Source of the DNA: Aquipuribacter sp. SD81 | GTDB taxonomy: Bacteria; Actinomycetota; Actinomycetes; Actinomycetales; JBBAYJ01 | Reading direction: 5' to 3' | NCBI RefSeq assembly: GCF_037153975.1 | Contig: NZ_JBBAYJ010000005.1 | Location: 1 to 64,000 of the forward strand | Length of the DNA: 64,000 bases | Shown: one piece after another, positions 4,426 to 36,261 of the stretch | How the letters are laid out: every line of letters starts with the position of its first letter | Position numbering within the stretch: position 1 is the stretch's first letter | Program-made: the position numbers and the translations under genes | Notes under the pieces: model-generated | Databases searched by the model: none | Seen by the model: the letters and a program-made list of their open reading frames with translations, nothing else | What the model was told of the DNA's origin: nothing

Positions 4426-5724
4426 GTGACGGGCACGCGACTCGACCGGTGGCACGGCGCGTACAGCCGCCGCGCGACCGGCATGACCGCGTCCGAGATC
4501 CGCGCGCTGTTCGCCGTCGCGAGCCGGCCCGAGGTGGTGAGCCTCGCGGGGGGCATGCCGACGCTCGACGCGCTGCCGCTGGACGAGGTGGGCGCGATCG
4601 TGCGCCGCTGTGTCGAGGAGTCCGCCGCCACCGCCCTGCAGTACGGCTCGGGGCAAGGCGATGTCCTTGCGCAAGAGCAGATCGCGGACGTCATGACCAC
4701 GGTCGGCTCCGACGTCGACCCGGACGACGTCGTCGTGACGACCGGCTCGCAGCACGCGCTCGACCTGCTCGTGCGCGTCATGGTCGACCCCGGTGACGTC
4801 GTCGTCGTGGAGTCCCCGAGCTACGTGGGGGCGCTCGGCGTCCTGCGCTCCTACGAGGCCGCAGTGCGCCACGTGGCCACCGACGAGGCGGGGGTCGTGC
4901 CGGACGCCCTCACGGAGCTCGTCGCGCGCGAGCGTGCGGCGGGCCGTCAGGTGAAGGCGCTGTACGTCGTGCCGCACCACCAGAACCCCAGCGGCGTGAC
5001 GACGAGCGCGGCCCGGCGCGACGAGCTCGTCGACGTGTGCCGCCGGCTCGGCCTGCTGCTCGTCGAGGACGACCCGTACGCCCTCCTCGGCTTCGACAGC
5101 GAGCCGCTGGCCTCCCTGCACTCCCGCGACACGGACGGGGTCGTCTACCTCGGCTCGTTCTCCAAGACCTTCGCCCCGGGCCTCCGTGTCGGCTGGGCGG
5201 TCGCCCCGCCGGCGCTGCGGGCCAAGCTCGTGCTCGCCGCCGAGGCGTCGGTGCTCTGCCCGTCCGCCTTCAGCCAGCGCGTCGTCGCGACGTACCTGCG
5301 GGGCAGCGACTGGCGCGCCCACGTCAAGGTGCTGCGCGGGCTGTACCGGGAGCGCCGCGACGCCCTGCTCGGTGCCCTCGCACGCCACCTCCCGGACGCG
5401 CACGTCACCCGGCCCGACGGCGGCTTCTTCACGTGGGTCCGTCTGCCCGACGGCCTCGACACCGCCGCGATGCTGCCCCGGGCCGTCGCCGCCCGGGTCG
5501 CCTACGTGCCGGGGACCGCCTTCCACGCCGACGGCGGCGGGGCCGCCTTCGCGCGGCTCTCCTTCTGCTACCCCCCGCCGGACCGCATCGTGGAGGGGGT
5601 GCGCCGGCTGGCGACGGTCGTCGCGGCCGAGCAGGAGCTCGTCGCCACCTTCGGTGCCTCGCCGACGGGCGTGCCGCGGGTGCCCGCCGGCGACGCCGAC
5701 CGTCCCGCGACGGACACCGCATGA
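4426..5724 (+). CDS. PLP-dependent aminotransferase (MocR/2-aminoadipate type fold)
   Basis: 432 residues of the fold-type I, class I/II aminotransferase family. Visible are the substrate-side SLAGGMPTLD motif, the QYGSGQGDVLAQEQ segment, the PHHQNPSGV cofactor-binding motif, VEDDPYALL, the SFSKTFAPGLRVGW segment in which Lys247 should form the Schiff base with PLP, and a late Arg in FARLSFCYPPPD. There is no GntR DNA-binding domain, so this is an enzyme, not a MocR regulator. Closest functional labels would be 2-aminoadipate/aromatic aminotransferases, but the substrate cannot be read from sequence. Start GTG 4426 was chosen because the upstream GTG lies in the trxA terminator. The stop overlaps the ligase gene (ATGA). 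Confidence 0.88.
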   Translation: MTGTRLDRWHGAYSRRATGMTASEIRALFAVASRPEVVSLAGGMPTLDALPLDEVGAIVRRCVEESAATALQYGSGQGDVLAQEQIADVMTTVGSDVDPDDVVVTTGSQHALDLLVRVMVDPGDVVVVESPSYVGALGVLRSYEAAVRHVATDEAGVVPDALTELVARERAAGRQVKALYVVPHHQNPSGVTTSAARRDELVDVCRRLGLLLVEDDPYALLGFDSEPLASLHSRDTDGVVYLGSFSKTFAPGLRVGWAVAPPALRAKLVLAAEASVLCPSAFSQRVVATYLRGSDWRAHVKVLRGLYRERRDALLGALARHLPDAHVTRPDGGFFTWVRLPDGLDTAAMLPRAVAARVAYVPGTAFHADGGGAAFARLSFCYPPPDRIVEGVRRLATVVAAEQELVATFGASPTGVPRVPAGDADRPATDTA

Positions 5725-6719
5725 CGGCCGTCGAGGCCGGGCGCGGCCGGGCGGGCGGGGAGCGACCGGCGGCGACCACCCAGGTGCTCGTGCTCGCCGG
5801 CGGCCTGTCCGCCGAGCGCGAGGTGTCGCTGCAGTCCGGTCGCGGCGTCGTCTCCGCCCTCGCCGAGGTCGGGGTGGACGCGGGTGTCGCCGACGTCGGC
5901 GCCGACCTGCTCGACGTCGTGCGTCGCCACGCGCCCGACGTCGTCTGGCCCGTCCTGCACGGGGCCGGTGGCGAGGACGGCACCCTGCCGCAGGTGCTCG
6001 AGCTGCTCCGCGTCCCGTTCGTCGGCTCGCCGTCCGGCGCGGCCCGGCTCGCGTGGGACAAGACGGCGGCCGCCGAGGTCGCGGCCCGGGCCGGTGCCGC
6101 CGTGCCGCCGTCGGTCACGCTGCCGCAGAGCCTCGTCCGTGACGTCGGCCCCGCCCGGCTGCTCCCGCTCGTCGCCGAGCGCATCCCCGGTCCCGTCGTG
6201 GTGAAGCCGGTCCACGGCGGCTCGAGCCTCGGGGTCGGTGTCGTGCACGACCCGGGGGACCTGCCGCACGCGATGGTGAGCGCCCTGGGGCACGACAGCC
6301 AGTGCCGGGTGGAGCGGTTCGTGCCCGGGACCGAGGTCGCCGTCACGGTCGTCGACGACGGCGGGGGTCCGGTCGCCGCGCCCGCCGTCGAGATCGCCCC
6401 GGACTCCGGGGCCTACGACTACGGCTCCCGCTACACCGCCGGCGCCACGGTCTTCCACTGCCCGGCCCGCCTGCCCGACGACGTCGCGCAGCGGCTGCTC
6501 GCGCAGGCCGTCGCGGTCCACGTGGCGCTCGGGCTCGGCCACCTGAGCCGCAGCGACTGGATCGTCGACGCCGACGGGCGGGCCTGGTTCCTCGAGGTCA
6601 ACACCTCTCCCGGGATGACGGGGACGAGCCTCGTCCCCCAGGCGCTGCAGGAGCAGGGCGGCGCGGCCGCGGTCTACGCCCGCCTCGTCGCCGCGGCCGG
6701 AGCCTCCTCAGCGGGCTGA
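5721..6719 (+). CDS. ddl: D-alanine--D-alanine ligase
   Basis: 332-residue ATP-grasp enzyme that joins two D-alanines for peptidoglycan precursors. Visible features: N-terminal [13 protein letters not shown] motif, [15 protein letters not shown] loop, the ATP-grasp lysines in [19 protein letters not shown], and the C-terminal metal/nucleotide motif [18 protein letters not shown]. It starts at an ATG overlapping the aminotransferase stop, so the two form an operon. A second, more canonical ddl usually lies elsewhere in actinobacterial genomes; whether this copy is housekeeping is unknown. Its 3' end overlaps the convergent parB by 12 nt, leaving no room for a separate terminator. Confidence 0.9.
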
Positions 6720-10615: not shown

Positions 10616-11596
10616 TCAGGGGGTGCCGGTCTTGCGCTTGCTCCGGGTCTGCCGCTTGGGCTGGACGCGCTTGACGGGGTCGGCCGTGCTCGCGGCGGGG
10701 TCGGGCTCGGGGAGGCCGAGCACCTCCTCGACGCTCTTGCCGGTCCGGGCCGCCGTGCGCTCCGCCTTCTTCCGGCGCCGCGCCTCGAGCTCCTTCTCGG
10801 CGGGCGAGCCGGGCGCGGGCAGGCTGCGGATGACGATGGTCTGCTGCACGGCGCTGTAGATGTTGGTGACGCACCAGTACAGGACCAGGCCGATGGCGAA
10901 GCCGACGCCGGAGACGGCGAACACCAGCGGCAGGATGTACAGCAGCATCTTCTGCTGCTTGAAGAACGGGCTGTCCATCGCGGCCGGGCTCATGTTCTTG
11001 GTCATGAGCATGCGCTGCACGTAGAACTGGGACAGCGTCATGATGATGACGAGAATCGTCGCCACCAGGTACGTCCACGGGCTCGTCGCGCTGAGCATGG
11101 TGTCCGACAGCGGCGCCCCGAAGAAGCGCGCCTGCGCCGCCTCGTTCTGCAGCTGCTCGGAGAACGGACCGATCGCCCCGGCGTCGGGGTTGCGCAGCCG
11201 GTTGAGCACCCGGAAGAGGCCGAAGAAGATCGGCATCTGGATGAGGATCGGCAGGCAGGAGGCGAAGGGGTTCGTCTTGGAGCTCCGGTAGAGCTCCATC
11301 GTCTCCTTGGTCATGGCCTCGCGGGAGGCCTGGTCGTTCTTGCCCTTGTACCGGTCCTGGATCTTCTTGATCTCGGGCTGGATGATCTGCATCGCCCGGG
11401 ACGCCTTGATCTGGCGCACGAACAGCGGGATGAGCAGCGTGCGCACGACGAGCACGACGGACACGATCGACAGCGTCCACGCGGGTCCGCCGTCGGGCTC
11501 GAAGCCGAGGTTGACGAGCAGGGTGTGCGTGCCGACCATCACCGTCGCCACGAACCACTCGATGGGGTAGAGGATGGTCGCGAAGAAGTCGCCCAT
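10616..11596 (-). CDS. yidC: Membrane protein insertase YidC
   Basis: 326 residues, OxaI/YidC family. It inserts and folds membrane proteins with or without SecYEG. Several hydrophobic segments are visible: one near the N-terminus, one at ~42-60 (TLSIVSVVLVVRTLLIPLF with the conserved Arg of the hydrophilic groove), then SCLPILIQMPIFFGLF, the TYLVATILVIIMTLS segment, and a last pair around YILPLVFAVSGVGF and LVLYWCVTNIYS. The C-terminal ~70 residues are basic (KRRKK, QPKRQTRSKRK), as in members that contact the ribosome. No large periplasmic domain, typical for Gram-positives. It sits 16 nt before yidD on the same strand. Confidence 0.96.
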   Translation of the reverse strand: MGDFFATILYPIEWFVATVMVGTHTLLVNLGFEPDGGPAWTLSIVSVVLVVRTLLIPLFVRQIKASRAMQIIQPEIKKIQDRYKGKNDQASREAMTKETMELYRSSKTNPFASCLPILIQMPIFFGLFRVLNRLRNPDAGAIGPFSEQLQNEAAQARFFGAPLSDTMLSATSPWTYLVATILVIIMTLSQFYVQRMLMTKNMSPAAMDSPFFKQQKMLLYILPLVFAVSGVGFAIGLVLYWCVTNIYSAVQQTIVIRSLPAPGSPAEKELEARRRKKAERTAARTGKSVEEVLGLPEPDPAASTADPVKRVQPKRQTRSKRKTGTP

Positions 11597-11611
11597 CGGG
11601 TCCTGGTCCTC

Positions 11612-11965
11612 CTAGGACGCCGCGCGACGGTCCGCGTCGGACCGGGCGGCGCTCGTGTTCTCGTGGCGGTGCTCGTTGCCGTCGTGCTCGTGCTGGTGGT
11701 CCCCGCGACGCTCGGGCACCGGGTCCCAGCCGCCCGGGTTCCACGGGTGGCAGCGCAGCAGCCGTCGGACGGTGAGCCAGCTGCCGTGCAGGACCCCGTA
11801 CCGGCGCACCGCCGTCACAGCGTACGACGAGCACGAGGGGGCGAACCGACACACCGGTCCCAGCACCGGCGACAGCGTGAGCTGGTACAGCCGGATGACG
11901 AGGACGAGCGCCTCGCGGGGCAGGCGCCACAGCAGGACCCCCGCCCGACGCGCGCGCTCAGCCAT
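11612..11965 (-). CDS. yidD: Membrane protein insertion efficiency factor YidD
   Basis: 117 residues. The core has the family motif [11 protein letters not shown], the conserved Cys-containing [19 protein letters not shown], and [16 protein letters not shown]. It is a small membrane-associated protein that helps YidC-dependent insertion. A His/Asp/Arg-rich tail of ~35 residues extends past the usual end. The start overlaps the rnpA stop by eight nt, so the two are translationally linked. Confidence 0.94.
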
Positions 11966-29535: not shown

Positions 29536-29608
29536 GGGGGCGTGGCGCAATTGGTAGCGCACCTGCTTTGCAAGCAGGGGGTTAGGGGTTCGAGTCCCCT
29601 CGCCTCCA
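29536..29608 (+). tRNA. tRNA-Ala (anticodon TGC)
   Basis: A 73-nt cloverleaf: acceptor GGGGGCG pairs with CGCCTCC (one G-T) plus A at 29608; anticodon stem-loop CCTGC-TTTGCAA-GCAGG, anticodon 29569-29571; T arm AGGGG-TTCGAGT-CCCCT. CCA is not encoded. The gene is intact. Its 3' half from the anticodon loop onward is repeated imperfectly at 36214-36261, marking it as the integration target of the downstream island. Confidence 0.97.
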
Positions 29609-29614
29609 CCCAGG
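29567..29614 (+). repeat. attL-like repeat (3' half of tRNA-Ala)
   Basis: Starts in the anticodon loop (TTTGCAAGCA) and runs through the T arm and acceptor to CACCCAGG. Aligned without gaps to 36214-36261, the longest shared blocks are GCAAGCA, GAGTC, TCGCCT and CACCCAGG. Confidence 0.8.
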
Positions 29615-29655
29615 CCAGAGGCCCTCTCGGCTCGCCGCGAAGGGCCTCTGGCCTG
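29611..29655 (+). terminator. Terminator after tRNA-Ala
   Basis: CAGGCCAGAGGCCCT pairs with AGGGCCTCTGGCCTG (15 bp) around a 15-nt loop, followed by TTCT. It lies just inside the left edge of the island. Confidence 0.88.
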
Positions 29656-29729
29656 TTCTGATAGCAGCGGAGTACAGCTGTCCGCCCAAGCTTCGCGTAC
29701 TGCCAGACAGCAGCAGGCTGCATCGGAGT

Positions 29730-30930
29730 GTGCCCGCGGTCGTTGGTTGAGGGTGTCAGCGGTCCTGGGTTCGAGATCCGGAGACGCTGCGGGGCTGGGT
29801 CGCCCAGGTCGAGGTCGACGAGAGCGCCCGAGCGGGCACCACGACCGATGCGCTCGACGGCTGGCCGAGCTGGAGCGCGAGAACAAGGAGCTGCGCCGGA
29901 CGAACGCGATCCTGCGCCGCGCGTCGGCCTTCTTCGCGGCGGAGCTCAACCGCCTACAGCGGTGATCGTCGACTACATCGACGCCCCACAAAAAGGAGCA
30001 CGGGGTCGAGCCGATGTGCAGCGCCCTTAATGAGGCCGGCGTCACGATCGCCCCGAGCACCTACTACGCCGCCAGGGTCCGGCCACCGTCGCAGCGGTCG
30101 CGTCAGGACGTGGTCACGACCGAGGCGATCCGGACGCTTTACGCCCACAAGTACGGCGTCTACGGCGCCCGTAAGGCCCACGCCGATCCCCGCCGGACAG
30201 GGCACGTCGTCGACCGCGGCGACGGACCCCGACCGGTCGCGCGCTGTACGGTCGAGCGGCTCATGCGCGCCGCCGGCCTGCGGGGCATCACCCGCGCCAG
30301 AGTGGCCGCGCAAACCATCGTCCCCGGCCAGGGGCCGGACGGGCGACACGACCTGGTCCAGCGCGCCTTCGCCGCGACCGCCCCGGACCAGCTTTAGGCG
30401 TCCGACATCTTCTACTGCCGCACGTTCGCCGTCTGGGTCTACGCGGCGTTCGTCATCGACGTCTTCAGTCGGCGGGTCCTGGGCTGACAGCTGTCTAAGA
30501 GCCTGCGCACCGACCGCGCTCTCGACGCCCTCGAGATGGGGATAAGGACGCGGAATCACGCCGGGCACGCATCACCGGCCCTACCCACCCCAGCGACAAG
30601 AGCGTCCAGTAGGTCGCCGTCCGCTACACCCAGCGCCTCGCCGAGGCCGGCGCGGTCGCCTCGGTCGGCTCCAGCGGAGGCAGCTACGACAACGCCCTGG
30701 CCGAAGCGTTCAACTCTCTCTTCAAGGCCGAGCTGGCCCGGAATAAGGGCCTCTGGAGTCCATCGACGACCTCGAGATCGCCGTCGCGGAGGACATCGAC
30801 TGTTTCAACCACAGGCGTCTGCACGAAGAGATCAGCCTCGTTCGACCCGCCAAGCTCGAGGACGCCCACTACCGTCACGACCCCGCCCCGACCATCGTCG
30901 AGGCGTTAATTCGGAGCCTCGACTGAACGC
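29730..30930 (+). pseudogene. Decayed IS3-family transposase (orfA/orfB)
   Basis: Pieces of both IS3 reading frames can be followed in shifting frames. OrfA: PETLRGWVAQVEVDESARAG (29782-29840), then after a frameshift RLAELERENKELRRTN and RASAFFAAELNR. OrfB: VDYIDA, frameshift, EAGVTIAPSTYYAARVRPPS, YGVYGARKAHAD, VARCTVERLMRAAGLRGI, then TAG where the family has Trp (DQL-W). It continues as VWVYAAFVIDVFSRRVLG, then TGA again replacing Trp, and SLRTDRALDALEM. A further shift leads to ASVGSSGGSYDNALAEAFN and DDLEIAVAEDIDCFNHRRLHEEI. The DDE core is broken, so no active transposase is made. The ends were not resolved. Confidence 0.85.
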
Positions 30931-30970
30931 AGGGCGAGCCAGAACGCCTTTAAGCGCCAAGCCGTCGGAT

Positions 30971-31468
30971 CTACCGCTCGAAGACTGCCTGCGGTTTAGG
31001 CGGTGTTCGGGGCTCTCTCGGCAAACTGAGCGCCTCGGTGACGAGGCGCACGGCCTCCTTGAGCTCGAGGTGCTCCCAGACACGGACGACTGTCCACCCG
31101 GCTCCGCCGAGAGCCTCGTCTGCGGCACGGTCTCGGACGGCCGTTCGAGCCAACTTCGGGCCCCAGTAGGACTGATTCGTAGTTGGTGCTCGGCCGTGAA
31201 TAGGGCATGAGTGCCAGAAGCAGCCGTCGACGAAAACGGCAACACGACGTCTTGTGAAGACGACATCGGGTCGCACTGTCTTGCCCTCCAGTTCAAGACG
31301 AAGGTCCTTCCGGAACCGCAGGCCAGCTGCATGGAGGGCAGCCCGCAGGCGCAGCTCTGGCTTGGTGTCGGCCCGCTTGATCGCGCGCATGTTGCGGGAG
31401 CGACCCGGGCTGACAGCCGGCAGAGCACCCTCGACCGGATCAGGAGCATCCGTCGAGGGGGAGGGCAT
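30971..31468 (-). CDS. Very short patch repair-type (Vsr) endonuclease 1
   Basis: 165 residues. SRNMRAIKRADTKPEL near residues 24-39 is the Vsr N-terminal signature; RPDVVF holds the metal-binding Asp68; VDGCFWHSCPIHG (residues 80-92) carries the catalytic/zinc residues Cys83, His86, Cys88 and His91; GWTVVRVWEHLE closes the fold. Vsr nicks 5' of the T in T:G mismatches that arise by deamination of 5-methylcytosine, so the gene normally accompanies a C5-methyltransferase, which is present here and divergent with a 99-nt gap. A C-terminal Pro/Lys/Arg-rich tail of ~18 residues is extra. ATG 31468 chosen because it precedes the conserved start by ~23 residues. Confidence 0.92.
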   Translation of the reverse strand: MPSPSTDAPDPVEGALPAVSPGRSRNMRAIKRADTKPELRLRAALHAAGLRFRKDLRLELEGKTVRPDVVFTRRRVAVFVDGCFWHSCPIHGRAPTTNQSYWGPKLARTAVRDRAADEALGGAGWTVVRVWEHLELKEAVRLVTEALSLPREPRTPPKPQAVFER

Positions 31469-31567
31469 GAGCCACCACGATGCCCGTGTGGCGTCCTGGG
31501 CGCCAGACCTAGGCTGTACCAGGATGGCCCCCACGCCACGTGTTCCATCTCGATCGAGGAGCCAAAG

Positions 31568-32842
31568 TTGTCTGAGCTGACTGTCATCGAAGTCTGCGCT
31601 GGTGCAGGAGGACAGGCACTGGGCCTTGAGCAGGCAGGCTTCGCGCACCGACTCGCGATTGAGCTCGACTCCTGGGCCGCTAAGACGCTGCGGTCCAACC
31701 TTGGAGCCGACGTGGTGAAGGAGGGGGACGTCGCGGACCGAACCGTCTTCAACCCCCTCGACCATGTGGGGCAGGTGGATCTTCTCGCCGGCGGCGTGCC
31801 GTGCCCTCCGTTCTCGGTGGCCGGACGCCAGCTCGGCGCGTCGGATGAACGCGATCTCTTTGCTTGGGCCGTGGAGACGGCCTCGCAGCTTGAGCCGAGA
31901 GCACTACTCCTTGAGAACGTGCGCGGACTATCCGCGCCTCGCTTTCGCGGTTACCGCCAGCATGTGCTCGACCGTCTCAAGAAGTTCGGCTACGTCGCTG
32001 AATGGCGTTTACTCCACGCGGCTGACTATGGAGTTCCTCAACTACGTCCCCGCTTCGTCTTGGTTGCGCTCCGACCTGAAGATTGGCCGTTCTTCTCTTG
32101 GCCGACACGAATCGAGAATACGACTACCGTGGGAACGTCGCTACGAGACCTCATGGCGGCTAATTCCTGGGAGCACGCTGACGAGTGGATGGAAATGGCG
32201 CGAGGTATCGCCCCGACCATCGTTGGCGGCAGTAAGAAGCACGGTGGCGCTGACTTGGGGCCAACTCGCGCCAAGGCTGCTTGGCGTTTGCTCGGGGTGG
32301 ACGCCTTAGGAGTGGCGGACGATGCGCCCCAACAGTCTGCGCCGCATCCAAGTGTTCGGTTGCCTCGTCTCACAGTGGGGATGGTTGCGCGTATTCAGGG
32401 CTGGGTTCGAGAGGATCAGCGCCATCAAGTTTGGCTGGAGAACTTGGCGGGCCGAAAGACTGCGCAATACCGCCAGATTGGTAATGCATTCCCGCCGCCA
32501 GTAGCCCGCGCGCTGGGCGACTCCCTTATATCGGCACTCCGGCACGAAAAGGAGCACGAAGTACTACCGACAAGCAGCGAGACGCAGGACGGGATCTACA
32601 GAGTGCTGAGCGCGTCTCGCTCGTTCCTCACTTCCGAATTGATCATGGAGCAAGCCTCCGAGCAACTCACGCTCCGCCAGTTCGAGCGGCGCATTGCCCA
32701 TCTGTCCGAAGATTTTCATGTTGAGACTCGTGAGACCCCTGGTGGACCCGCCTACCGAATCTCAGGCTTCAAGGCTTTCGTCGGCCAGGATGGCCACGGA
32801 CGTCATGAATACATGCGCACACATCGCAGCCGGGTGAGTTGA
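31568..32842 (+). CDS. DNA (cytosine-5)-methyltransferase 1 with C-terminal winged-helix domain
   Basis: 424 residues from TTG 31568, with GAGGAG six bases upstream; the frame is open further up but that part lies over vsr1. Motif I EVCAGAGGQALGL, motif IV GGVPCPPFS with nucleophile Cys79 (Pro replaces the usual Gln after Cys-Pro/Gln), motif VI ENVRGL, motif VIII QLRPRF, motif X QIGNAFPPPVARALG. It methylates C5 of a cytosine in an unknown site. After residue ~340 there is an added domain of ~75 residues (FLTSELIMEQASEQLTLRQ, then FERRIAHLSEDFHVE) that looks like a winged helix related to the one in the next gene. First gene of the island operon; AT-richer than the backbone. Confidence 0.92.
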   Translation: MSELTVIEVCAGAGGQALGLEQAGFAHRLAIELDSWAAKTLRSNLGADVVKEGDVADRTVFNPLDHVGQVDLLAGGVPCPPFSVAGRQLGASDERDLFAWAVETASQLEPRALLLENVRGLSAPRFRGYRQHVLDRLKKFGYVAEWRLLHAADYGVPQLRPRFVLVALRPEDWPFFSWPTRIENTTTVGTSLRDLMAANSWEHADEWMEMARGIAPTIVGGSKKHGGADLGPTRAKAAWRLLGVDALGVADDAPQQSAPHPSVRLPRLTVGMVARIQGWVREDQRHQVWLENLAGRKTAQYRQIGNAFPPPVARALGDSLISALRHEKEHEVLPTSSETQDGIYRVLSASRSFLTSELIMEQASEQLTLRQFERRIAHLSEDFHVETRETPGGPAYRISGFKAFVGQDGHGRHEYMRTHRSRVS

Positions 32843-32847
32843 GTCAT

Positions 32848-33603
32848 GTGGGCGGCACTCGAGACCATGGGCAGTACACCTTCTCTTTCGACAGCCCCGA
32901 AGGGATAAAACCAAGGAGTCCGCGCCCGCCATCGACGTCTGCTGAACAACCGAAATCGCAGAGGTCTACGTCCAATCTTTCAGGAGGTAGTCCGATTAAC
33001 AGGAACATTGCAAGCGCGAAGGCCGCAGTGGAGCGGTTTGCGGGGCGCCTCGAGAAGCAGACCGAGTTCGACGAAAGTCTAGCTCTTGAGTACAACCGCC
33101 TCAAACGGGCCTTGGCTGCGAGCTTTCAAGAGATGGCGTTAGAAACCGTACCTCGAGATCAATACCCACTGAACGAGGTCAAGAGCGCGGTCATCTCCCA
33201 GATGCGGAGTCTATTTGCCGGTAGGGCCGACTCACATCTGCTCGTCATTCGGCGGTACACAACGCCGCATCCAGACCTATACGCGCTTCTTGCGGCAAAG
33301 GTGAACGAGCCGGTCCCGGCTTGGCGACTGCGCCTTCTGAGCGGCGACAAAACTCACACGGAAAGGAGAACCCGGGAACTCCGAGATCTCGGCCTCGAAA
33401 TCGAAGTACTGGGAGAAGATGACGAGCCAACGTATCGGCTGGTGTCCTTGCAGCCTGACTTGATCTACGGCGCAGCGTATCAATTGCGCGAGAACGTGAT
33501 TAAGTCTCGCACGTTGTCGGCGTTCGAAAAGGAGCTTCTCCGAAGGCTGGCCGAAGAGACAGCTGAACTCCCGCCTAGAAGGAGTGCCAACGATGGCGAT
33601 TGA
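32848..33603 (+). CDS. Winged-helix protein of the methyltransferase operon, function unknown
   Basis: 251 residues from GTG 32848 (a TTG at 32839 overlapping the methyltransferase stop is the alternative). I do not recognise a named family. Residues ~1-45 are Pro/Ser-rich and disordered; ~50-110 form a charged helical region (AKAAVERFAGRLEKQTEFDE); ~140-195 form a winged helix: LYALLAAKVNEPVPAWRLRL, then ERRTRELRDLGLEIEVLGED and YRLVS, the pattern common in C-terminal domains of restriction-associated HNH proteins. No nuclease motif is visible. The overlap with both neighbours indicates a co-translated subunit. It could set DNA specificity or recruit the nuclease. Confidence 0.75.
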   Translation: MGGTRDHGQYTFSFDSPEGIKPRSPRPPSTSAEQPKSQRSTSNLSGGSPINRNIASAKAAVERFAGRLEKQTEFDESLALEYNRLKRALAASFQEMALETVPRDQYPLNEVKSAVISQMRSLFAGRADSHLLVIRRYTTPHPDLYALLAAKVNEPVPAWRLRLLSGDKTHTERRTRELRDLGLEIEVLGEDDEPTYRLVSLQPDLIYGAAYQLRENVIKSRTLSAFEKELLRRLAEETAELPPRRSANDGD

Positions 33604-35542
33604 AGCCGACCGTCTGAGTGAGGACTCCACATCGCTCTTTGATGCGCCACGCCCCCTTCGGCTAGTTCCGGAGTTGCCCGATGGCCGGTCGCGTCGCTCA
33701 TTTCAGACTACGTTGCAGCGGAGAGGATTGCGTAAGGAGAGCGCGGCAGCGGTCGCGCGGGCGGTTGTGCGCCCCGAAGTAGCACAGGCGAACCTCTCCA
33801 GTCCTACGTCATACCGTGTCCCGGGTGCGGAGCTGCTGGTCATCAGGGTTGAGGTCTATACGAACAGGGTCATCACGGATGCCACCAACCCGCGTATCCT
33901 CAACCACATCTTGTTTCCCGCTGCAGTTGCCCCCGGTAATCAGCGTGCGCTCTTCGAGCCGCTCGAGCCCCCCATCTCCCGGGAGAACGATTTTAGCATC
34001 GTCGTGAAGAGTCTTGAGCAACTGATCTGGCAACTTGATACAACAGTGCAAGCAACAATAAAGCAGAATGTTCCGCGCCCTCCCCTGATCGAGCAGGGCA
34101 TCATGGAGCCGCCGCTGGCTGTGCCTGCTTCGATCGAACAAGCGGATGGCAAGGTACTGGCTGGGACTGTGCTGATTCGCGAAGGCAGTACGCGGGTAAG
34201 TCACGCCCAACATATCCTCGGGTTGACTTCCCGTGATGTTCTCGTTCGCTATTCCGAAGAGCAAGAGCAGGCCTCCCTGATTGCCGAGCTAAACACCATA
34301 GCGCAGTCGTCGGCATCCAGCATCTCGTTGAATGACGCCGGGCGAGTTCGAGTTGTGACCATGCCGGTGGACTTGGTTATTGGCGTACAGCCGGATGCAG
34401 GAGCTTCCACGACTCTCGGGGAGGCGGTTGCTGCGAAGGTCGCCCAGGACCATCTGAACCACAAGAAGCAGTGGGACGAATCGGCCAAGGATGTCCATCT
34501 CGGCGAATCTTGCCTGATCGCTTTGCGCGACGAATCGCTTCTTAGTGACGAGATGTACCACTGGTTGACTGGGCGGATGGCCGCGGGCACCAAGGTTGAC
34601 GGACAAGCCGTTCATGAGGACGACCGTTGGACGGAACTTATCTGGTTGTTCACTACACGGAAGCGCCCCCAGTCCACCGTCATCAAGCGTCCGATCGCAA
34701 CGGTGCTCGAACGCGAAGAAGGACGACGGTCGGTACGGAATAGAACCGACAAGGTGCCCCTCGCAGTGGCGCTCGCGATGCGATCCAGGCGCGGGGCGAT
34801 CACCGAATCGGCGGTGGAGCGCGAGAGCCGGGTGCTTGAGGGAGCCGTCTTCAGCGCGGTCTTCGAGGTGACCTGGGTTCCGACGTCGACTTCGCTCGAT
34901 GATCTCGCTGCGCGAGCGATCGATGCCGCCGGAAGCCGTAGTCCAAGCGCCGCCGGTGTGGAGTTGGCAGTCCGCGCGATGTGGTATCTAGCGAGGCATG
35001 GGCAATTATCTATGCCGCGAAACGACCTAGGACCTGGGGGGGACCGTAGGACGCCTGGTGAGCTTGTCACGGGCATGCTTGCCTCGAAGCAGGGGATTCA
35101 GCAGTTGCTGCGAACCATTCAGGATGGCAGGGCTGGCGAGAAGGCCGGCTACGTCGTCGATGAAGCTGGTCGCGTGGACATCAGTGGGATTGGGTCGCCG
35201 GTTGCACTGAGGGACGACCTCATCCGAACACAGCTGGTCCCAAGGTCGGGTCCGCCGGCTCCTCTGGCTCGCAACCCACGTGAAGAGTTCATGGACTCGA
35301 TCGCAGCATTAACCCGCCAACTTCACTCAGTGGTCGCTGCGGATGATCACCTCCGTGGAATAGATGATGGCCACAGCAGACCTATGCACGAAGTTGAGGG
35401 CATCCCGTCAGCCCAAGCTGCTGACCTGTTGGAGTTGATTGACAACCTTAGGACTCATGTCGCTCAGTACGAGATCAACTGGCGCGTGGCAGAGGCGATA
35501 CGTTCTCAAGGTGGGACCGGGCCACAAGAAGCATCGCCATGA
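33593..35542 (+). CDS. ParB/Srx-like protein of the methyltransferase operon, function unknown
   Basis: 649 residues from ATG 33593, with AAGGAG eight bases upstream; it overlaps the preceding gene by 11 nt. Not a family I can name. Residues ~155-212 resemble the ParB/sulfiredoxin box: VPRPPLIEQGIMEPPLAVPA, then EQADGKVLAGTVLIREGSTR and VSHAQHILGL, comparable to G-x-x-x-P...DG...GxxRxxAA-xxLG of ParB (inference). The middle (~330-380) has WTELIWLFTTRKRPQST; the C-terminal third is helical and ends ...YEINWRVAEAIRSQGG. No Walker or helicase motif is found, so it is not a Type I/III motor. It may sense DNA state or use nucleotide as ParB does. Its stop overlaps the GIY-YIG gene (ATGA). Confidence 0.7.
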   Translation: MAIEADRLSEDSTSLFDAPRPLRLVPELPDGRSRRSFQTTLQRRGLRKESAAAVARAVVRPEVAQANLSSPTSYRVPGAELLVIRVEVYTNRVITDATNPRILNHILFPAAVAPGNQRALFEPLEPPISRENDFSIVVKSLEQLIWQLDTTVQATIKQNVPRPPLIEQGIMEPPLAVPASIEQADGKVLAGTVLIREGSTRVSHAQHILGLTSRDVLVRYSEEQEQASLIAELNTIAQSSASSISLNDAGRVRVVTMPVDLVIGVQPDAGASTTLGEAVAAKVAQDHLNHKKQWDESAKDVHLGESCLIALRDESLLSDEMYHWLTGRMAAGTKVDGQAVHEDDRWTELIWLFTTRKRPQSTVIKRPIATVLEREEGRRSVRNRTDKVPLAVALAMRSRRGAITESAVERESRVLEGAVFSAVFEVTWVPTSTSLDDLAARAIDAAGSRSPSAAGVELAVRAMWYLARHGQLSMPRNDLGPGGDRRTPGELVTGMLASKQGIQQLLRTIQDGRAGEKAGYVVDEAGRVDISGIGSPVALRDDLIRTQLVPRSGPPAPLARNPREEFMDSIAALTRQLHSVVAADDHLRGIDDGHSRPMHEVEGIPSAQAADLLELIDNLRTHVAQYEINWRVAEAIRSQGGTGPQEASP

Positions 35543-35922
35543 ACTACGACGCGATTGCTCTGTATGCGGGCAAGTACCTGCAGCAAGCCACTCCGATAGC
35601 TGTGGAGGTCGGGCGCGGCGAAACGATACCCGACTCCCCGGTGGGCGTGTATGTAGCCGTAGGTCTTGACGGCACGGTTCTTTACGTTGGCTCGGTTTAC
35701 CGACCCCTTAATGATCGGGGGGTGCAAACCCGCGTCAACGAACATCTTAAGCGTCAGGATAGGTTTGAAACTTGGGACAAGGTCTTCGTCGTCACGCTTC
35801 GCCCGGACACTCCATTGGAAGCGGTCCGTCGGATCGAGGGTAGAATTGGGGCCCACTTGGCGCCAAGCGGTTCGAAGGCGCTACCTAGGTTGAAGTCTAC
35901 CAAACGCCGTGACGTAGGCTAA
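35539..35922 (+). CDS. GIY-YIG nuclease-like protein
   Basis: 127 residues. The GIY-YIG core is seen as G36-V-Y38 and, eleven residues later, Y49-V-G51, then Arg65 and His69 in RVNEHLKRQ, and Glu100 in VRRIEGRIG. This is the order of catalytic residues known for small GIY-YIG restriction enzymes (R.Eco29kI, R.Hpy188I). The final conserved Asn is not evident: the expected place reads HLAPSGSKALP. It is the last gene of the operon and the only clear nuclease besides Vsr, so it is the likely cutter. Function as a restriction enzyme is inference. Confidence 0.78.
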   Translation: MNYDAIALYAGKYLQQATPIAVEVGRGETIPDSPVGVYVAVGLDGTVLYVGSVYRPLNDRGVQTRVNEHLKRQDRFETWDKVFVVTLRPDTPLEAVRRIEGRIGAHLAPSGSKALPRLKSTKRRDVG

Positions 35923-36213
35923 CGAGTTGGACGGCGAGCCGTCAGGTGCCCGCCCATGAGGTCGCCTGGCCCTCCACCGAGCAGCTCTAGCGGTAGGCCC
36001 CAATCGGCCCCGCGAGAAAGGCGCCAAGAGACGTGTCCATGGGCGGCCCATCGGGCCGGAGGGACACTGCTGCAATGACCTTCGCGACAGAGACGACCTG
36101 GGCGAGTCGTACAGCAGTGGGTACAGCAATCGCAACAATCAGTGCTAACCCTCGGCGGATCGAGATCCTGTCTAAGCAGCCACGACGCTCGTATCAACCC
36201 TTCCGGCCGCGAC
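35923..36213. other. Island right-end spacer, no gene recognised
   Basis: About 290 nt between the GIY-YIG gene and the right repeat. Stops in all frames limit any product to fragments. It contains two nearby GTACAGCA-type motifs (AGCAGTGGGTACAGCA at ~36113-36128), and a related AGCAGCGGAGTACAGC lies just inside the left end (29664-29679); these could be remnants of integrase arm sites. No integrase residues could be identified. Confidence 0.4.
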
Positions 36214-36261
36214 TTCGCAAGCAATGGCTTCAGGGTTAGAGTCCTCTCGCCTTCACCCAGG
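36214..36261 (+). repeat. attR-like repeat, degenerate copy of the tRNA-Ala 3' half
   Basis: TTCGCAAGCA ... GAGTCCTCTCGCCTTCACCCAGG in split form aligns without gaps to 29567-29614 at 39 of 48 positions. Changes fall in the T arm and acceptor, so this copy cannot be a working tRNA end. It marks the right island boundary; the backbone resumes 54 nt before the next gene. Confidence 0.75.

Follow-up and report, generated by a model that had tools for sequence, protein, structure and literature searches.

A putative restriction-modification marking half joined to a ParB-like/GIY-YIG gene pair: a probable, unusual defence island in Aquipuribacter sp. SD81

Organization of the operon

The window analysed here, the whole stretch of 64,000 nucleotides (64 kb) at positions 1 to 64,000 of contig NZ_JBBAYJ010000005.1 of Aquipuribacter sp. 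SD81, contains a plus-strand operon in which a C5-cytosine methyltransferase (MTase) gene is followed by genes for a predicted winged-helix (WH) protein, a 649-aa ParB/Srx-fold protein that we call BIG, and a small GIY-YIG nuclease, while vsr, encoding a very-short-patch repair endonuclease, lies divergently on the opposite strand. These genes, located on what looks like a genomic island, probably represent the marking half (C5 MTase and Vsr) of a restriction-modification (RM) system joined to an undescribed ParB-like/GIY-YIG pair, and an unusual defence against foreign DNA.

The tight packing noticed in the original prediction, which had been made from the sequence without database searches, was confirmed exactly. 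The MTase gene (31568..32842, 424 aa) starts with TTG downstream of GAGGAG, and the WH open reading frame (32839..33603) encodes 254 aa if translation begins with the TTG at 32839 or, as originally predicted, 251 aa if it begins with the GTG at 32848; the MTase/WH junction is a 4-nt overlap or a 5-nt gap, according to the start chosen. The BIG gene (33593..35542) overlaps the WH gene by exactly 11 nt and is itself overlapped by exactly 4 nt by the GIY-YIG gene (35539..35922, 127 aa), whereas vsr (30971..31468, minus strand, 165 aa) is separated from the MTase gene by 99 nt. In the domain library scans, none of the operon proteins matched a P-loop ATPase family, in agreement with the earlier remark that a motor ATPase is missing. 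Scans of Pfam, NCBIfam, PHROGs and PADLOC gave nothing convincing for BIG and nothing above cut-off for the WH and GIY-YIG proteins, and the PADLOC matches of the WH protein to AbiEii (0.008) and of BIG to REase_II (0.014) were judged to have arisen by chance.

The methyltransferase and Vsr resemble those of NaeI/NgoMIV-type systems

Both enzymes had been correctly recognized from the sequence. The MTase, which has a C-terminal extension, matches PF00145 (4.5e-56) with Cys79 of motif IV within PCPPFS, and Vsr matches PF03852 (3.7e-21) and TIGR00632 (2.2e-39). The originally suggested link to restriction holds as well: like the components of NaeI/NgoMIV Type II RM systems, the two recur together in actinomycetes, the MTase being 50-59% identical to MTases adjoining NaeI and NgoMIV, including the target-recognition region, and Vsr being 61% identical to the one adjoining NaeI in Rhodococcus opacus. 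The nearest plasmid relative of the MTase (58% identical over its full length) stands beside NaeI, Vsr and HNH genes in Rhodococcus opacus, and MTases that are about 53% identical accompany NgoMIV in three loci, from Acidovorax, E. coli and Paracoccus. Among actinomycete chromosomal relatives, NaeI adjoins the MTase in 10, Vsr is present in six or so, and several have a WH-HNH protein; with Rhodococcus this makes 11 loci in which NaeI lies beside a related MTase, and one more, G774, was found later. By homology, the MTase and Vsr are the modification half of a NaeI/NgoMIV-type RM system.

Unlike in such systems, domain scans revealed no NaeI, NgoMIV or HNH gene among the five island genes; instead of NaeI, NgoMIV or a WH-HNH endonuclease, the WH, ParB-type and GIY-YIG genes are found there. 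A NaeI profile gave no match in the genome, but neither did its controls. NaeI has the same site as NgoMIV, GCCGGC, and because relatives of the island MTase adjoin the genes of these two enzymes, GCCGGC is, judging from the family, most likely the sequence that it methylates, and GCCGGC sites are most likely those guarded by Vsr. NgoMIV is known to recognise GCCGGC and to cut it as G/CCGGC (PMC4081073).

The MTase is also matched over its full length by the PADLOC DruM model (2.4e-188); a Druantia type II system was rejected despite this match because DruE helicase, DruF and DruG were unmatched in the operon. Single-protein pattern scans of viral contigs with the MTase or the WH protein found no relative. 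As a side observation, a pair of GmrSD_N (DUF262) and HEPN genes recurs near NaeI-type RM loci (L066, 8694-10387; L104, 10937-12732; L114, 2080-3790), the domains of L066 and L104 being known from scans or annotation and those of L114 from resemblance only.

BIG belongs to a widespread family with a predicted ParB/Srx fold

A single-protein pattern scan of the genome contigs with BIG found no relative, while a profile built from island BIG and its relatives recovered 30 loci from the same contigs, with hosts among Alphaproteobacteria, Gammaproteobacteria, Acidobacteria, Chloroflexi, Streptomyces, Mycobacterium and Frankia, plus one viral contig. We considered 42 BIG-family loci, namely the window, seven plasmids (L004-L010), L024, 31 loci (L035-L065), L137 and L138. 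Two motifs resembling ParB boxes, box I (N99-P100-R101) and box II (G198-S199-x-R201), are invariant in all 32 aligned members.

AlphaFold2 modelled BIG with a pLDDT of 80.6 (81.1 for residues 66-400 alone). When the BIG domain was compared with the PDB using VIA-align, rows 1-18 all belonged to the ParB/Srx superfamily (Z 7.5 to 3.1), the first unrelated row having Z 3.0. The top match, Myxococcus ParB (Z 7.5, 94 residues, rmsd 2.3 A), corresponds to a region resembling the ParB CTPase fold at residues 84-292 (33842..34468), and further matches included Bacillus ParB, Caulobacter ParB, KorB, Noc, Srx, SbnI and SspE (Z 3.5). Foldseek gave no significant match to the BIG models and a PDB sequence search with BIG was empty; the assignment is based on VIA-align together with the motifs, and we consider a ParB/Srx fold well supported. 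The ParB-like box pointed out in the original prediction is thus real and located within this fold, through which BIG may bind a nucleotide.

Pfam GmrSD_N matched none of the 32 members, and where GmrS has its DGQQR motif, EGSTR (in island BIG) or EGSSR is found. Since no parA is present among the five island genes, classical ParABS partition was rejected.

Several neighbours of BIG homologues are worth recording. A gene of one shared family adjoins BIG in actinomycetes and a Chloroflexi MAG, downstream in L043, L046, L050, L054 and L057 and upstream in L053; the only such neighbour scanned, that of L043, has a WhiB-like domain and a helix-turn-helix (HTH), which suggests a second type of partner. 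Another small shared-family open reading frame precedes the alphaproteobacterial homologues L036, L039 and L040, the one scanned (L039) being a weak HicA-toxin match. On the Mesorhizobium plasmid L004, a 22-aa Vsr-like remnant was seen by eye upstream of BIG (11545-11613); it was not used as evidence.

BIG and the GIY-YIG nuclease form a recurrent two-gene module

The GIY-YIG protein falls below the Pfam cut-off (PF01541, E 0.15 for the island protein; 0.15, 0.033 and 0.039 over three members), though its catalytic residues are well conserved. Y38, Y49, G51, R55, R65, H69 and E100 are invariant in an alignment of seven homologues, and the catalytic Y38, Y49/G51, R65, H69 and E100 proved invariant in seven to eight; the catalytic set is also kept in L055, L024 and L138. 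A PDB sequence search with this protein alone was empty, and its profile retrieved chance matches only.

In six Streptomyces plasmids, a relative of the nuclease gene has a gene for 620-670 aa directly upstream, which is homologous to BIG via intermediates (P0010-P0006, E 1e-17; P0006-P0008, 3e-18; BIG-P0006, 4e-4). The plasmid BIG genes of L008 and L010 are very divergent, and pairwise BLAST could not link the latter. Altogether, the module of BIG and GIY-YIG genes occurs in 10 of the 42 loci: the window, the six Streptomyces plasmids, L024, L055 and L138. Tree tests of how the nuclease is partnered were weakened by long branches.

The 254-aa protein is likely to contain a winged helix

The originally predicted winged helix, at about residues 144-207, is likely on the basis of a sequence pattern (HTERRxRELRxLG) and a weak profile match, while the predicted length applies to the GTG start only. 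The ERRxRELRxLG motif is also present in the WH-HNH proteins that these RM loci encode, the profile score being weak. Only one relative was found in 395 genomes, a 195-aa Streptomyces protein with 34% identity over 154 aa, whose gene sits 2 kb from a NaeI-family MTase gene, directly after that of a PIN_8-domain protein (L034, 8534-10695). A sister locus, L103, retains a WH remnant, and thus the combination of WH and MTase recurs once, in two sister loci.

BIG is associated with C5 methyltransferase and Vsr genes in its own taxonomic order

The other two BIG loci in the taxonomic order of the window, G774 (L137) and G887 (L138), both carry a C5 MTase and Vsr, so that this holds for 3/3 BIG loci found in the order. 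In G774, the genes run Vsr, NaeI-family MTase, NaeI, EVE-domain protein and BIG, the last lying 5.3 kb from the NaeI-type MTase. This BIG is the closest relative of the island protein (31% identity over 620 aa, E 2e-83; clade support 100/100). In G887, Vsr is followed by a C5 MTase of the Dcm type, an unassigned 469-aa protein, and BIG with GIY-YIG in convergent orientation. In our view, nothing speaks more strongly for a functional link than this same-order association, with the reservation that the numbers are small and that defence genes cluster anyway. The EVE-domain protein of G774 (5100-6002), located between the NaeI RM system and BIG, is a weak Pfam match with, by eye, a nuclease-like C-terminus.

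The idea that all four genes travel together was not supported: only the BIG/GIY-YIG pair recurs, mostly without a C5 MTase, and MTase with Vsr recurs beside NaeI. The original prediction held that finding homologues mostly without the methyltransferase would speak against it; this is largely the case for the BIG family as a whole, though not in the order of the window. The functional link is kept alive because both other loci of this order, including the one that encodes the closest relative of island BIG, carry C5 MTase and Vsr.

The operon lies on a probable genomic island

The island genes have a GC content of 57-65%, as against 73% for the whole window. At the left end, ARAGORN detected tRNA-Ala (TGC) at 29536..29610 on the plus strand, the probable integration site, whose 3' half makes up the left copy of an imperfect 49-nt direct repeat (29566..29614, plus strand). 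The right copy, at 36213..36261 on the same strand, is identical to it at 40/49 nt (82%; blastn E 3e-8) and is the probable right end, where GC climbs from about 0.60 to above 0.71. The region 29536-36261 thus looks like a low-GC genomic island that spans about 6.6 kb and has integrated at tRNA-Ala. Remnants of IS3-like transposase were noticed by eye inside it, near 30000-30900.

Comparison with known systems

In GmrSD, BrxU and SspE, HNH nucleases are known to be gated by ParB/Srx-fold NTPases (PMC10952713, PMC4619093). Like them, the island combines a ParB/Srx-fold protein with a nuclease and no motor ATPase, SspE being even among the structural matches of BIG. However, BIG is of the ParB type, with no DUF262 sequence, the nuclease is a GIY-YIG protein encoded by a separate gene rather than DUF1524/HNH (no HNH (DUF1524) match was obtained in domain scans of the operon), and a C5 MTase is present in the operon.

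GIY-YIG Type II restriction enzymes have also been described (PMC4081073). Eco29kI, Cfr42I and Hpy188I share the GIY-YIG active-site residues and a methyltransferase alongside, whereas the island nuclease has only 127 aa, shows no sequence match to them that we could find, and is accompanied by the 649-aa ParB-type partner and an MTase of the GCCGGC family. The N6-methyladenine-dependent wH-GIY-YIG fusions Ahi29725I and Apa233I likewise bring a winged helix together with a GIY-YIG domain, but in the island these domains are on separate proteins, together with a ParB-type protein and a C5 MTase. SNIPE, a DUF4041 and GIY-YIG nuclease, cuts DNA as a defence against phage, but it is a single membrane protein without a ParB-type partner or MTase.

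Possible explanations of the operon

Our leading explanation, which we hold tentatively and at somewhat less than an even chance, is that the operon encodes a composite restriction system: self would be marked by methylation, and a nucleotide-gated ParB-type/GIY-YIG pair would cut. The MTase would methylate cytosine in (most likely) GCCGGC, marking host DNA, and Vsr would mend the T:G mismatches left when 5-methylcytosine deaminates. The WH, ParB-type and GIY-YIG proteins would constitute the restriction arm, in the place where the NaeI/NgoMIV endonuclease is missing: the WH protein might, hypothetically, read the target and assist site recognition, while the ParB-fold BIG could act on DNA as a nucleotide-gated clamp or switch, licensing the small nuclease to cut when the bound DNA is without the self mark. 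Of this scheme, the computational analysis established the gene identities, the ParB/Srx fold, the conservation of the nuclease residues, the recurring ParB/GIY-YIG pair and the repeated occurrence of this ParB subfamily with C5 MTase and Vsr; we infer the target site, the binding of an NTP, assembly into a complex, methylation-dependent gating and a role in defence. A more specific version, a new kind of RM restriction arm in which a multi-subunit nucleotide-gated endonuclease (WH reader, CTPase-fold clamp and detached GIY-YIG) cuts DNA without GCCGGC methylation and Vsr guards the methylated sites, is less likely than not.

Several observations weigh against the composite system. The full four-gene set was found in the island only, and 39 of the 42 BIG-family loci are without a relative of this MTase in the flanks examined. 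G774 has NaeI, and a GIY-YIG gene was not found beside its BIG; BIG is therefore no NaeI replacement there and not simply a stand-in for it. The assignment of the winged helix is weak. Over 464 kb of the genome, GCCGGC occurs only slightly less often than expected (observed/expected 0.915, rank 8 of 43 palindromes), which is no clear avoidance and is uninformative as support. Moreover, no C5 MTase was detected anywhere on the six Streptomyces plasmids with the pair (positive controls matched in 10/14 genomes), so the BIG/GIY-YIG pair can exist without this C5 MTase, independently of C5 methylation. This last point favours two independent modules in one operon, which we regard as close to, and nearly as likely as, the composite system. 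On one hand, an orphan NaeI-type MTase with Vsr could be an RM remnant, protective against GCCGGC-cutting enzymes, and the ParB/GIY-YIG module could be self-contained and serve MTase-independent defence or plasmid competition, with co-transcription explained by accretion of a defence island. The pairs of L024 and L055, which likewise occur without a C5 MTase, fit this idea, as does the fact that BIG is a separate transcription unit in G774 and G887, close to an RM system that has a candidate restriction endonuclease of its own; NaeI-type loci also draw other defence genes, for example GmrSD_N with HEPN in L066, L104 and possibly L114. On the other hand, the overlaps of 4-11 nt from MTase to GIY-YIG are closer than usual for chance accretion, and it is this packing, together with the C5 MTase and Vsr genes in every BIG locus found in the order, that makes us favour the composite system.

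The remaining explanations seem considerably weaker. It is improbable that the operon encodes a modification-dependent (Type IV-like) nuclease, as had been one part of the original proposal, in which BIG, possibly assisted by the WH protein, would sense a modified base and trigger GIY-YIG cutting. The ParB/Srx fold is common to BIG and GmrS, BrxU and SspE (PMC4619093, PMC10952713), the characterised wH-GIY-YIG fusions require N6-methyladenine (PMC11037411), and the pair exists without an MTase; however, dependence on 5-methylcytosine (m5C) is disfavoured because the same operon makes a C5 MTase, and would be self-harming unless the GCCGGC context were exempt, and EGSTR is present instead of the GmrS motif. 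Less probable still is that BIG and GIY-YIG serve plasmid or island maintenance or transfer rather than defence, through ParB-like partition or conjugation control with DNA processing by GIY-YIG. The ParB fold, the frequent location on linear or conjugative plasmids, sometimes near relaxase genes, and the WhiB-like or HicA-like partners of other family members would suit such a role, but the operon is without ParA, chromosomal loci are spread across several phyla, and RM genes are repeatedly nearby in the order of the window. That the island is decaying and has no present function is very improbable: despite the IS-like remnants, the imperfect att repeat and the WH remnant in the related locus L103, all five genes are open, catalytic residues are conserved, and the starts of the MTase and BIG genes have good ribosome-binding sites upstream.

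Significance

In the literature searched, most subscription papers being outside its scope, we found no description of a ParB-type protein paired with a detached GIY-YIG nuclease, as seen here together with C5 MTase and Vsr, and a 2025 survey of the ParB-CTPase fold does not mention GIY-YIG (PMC12704722). The module is a testable candidate for a nucleotide-gated, non-motor nuclease because it is found repeatedly on Streptomyces plasmids and next to actinomycete RM systems with C5 MTase and Vsr. ParB-fold proteins are known to act as CTP-dependent DNA clamps and, in their DUF262 form, to switch HNH restriction enzymes. The module is also a candidate for an RM system that exchanges its endonuclease while retaining the methyltransferase.

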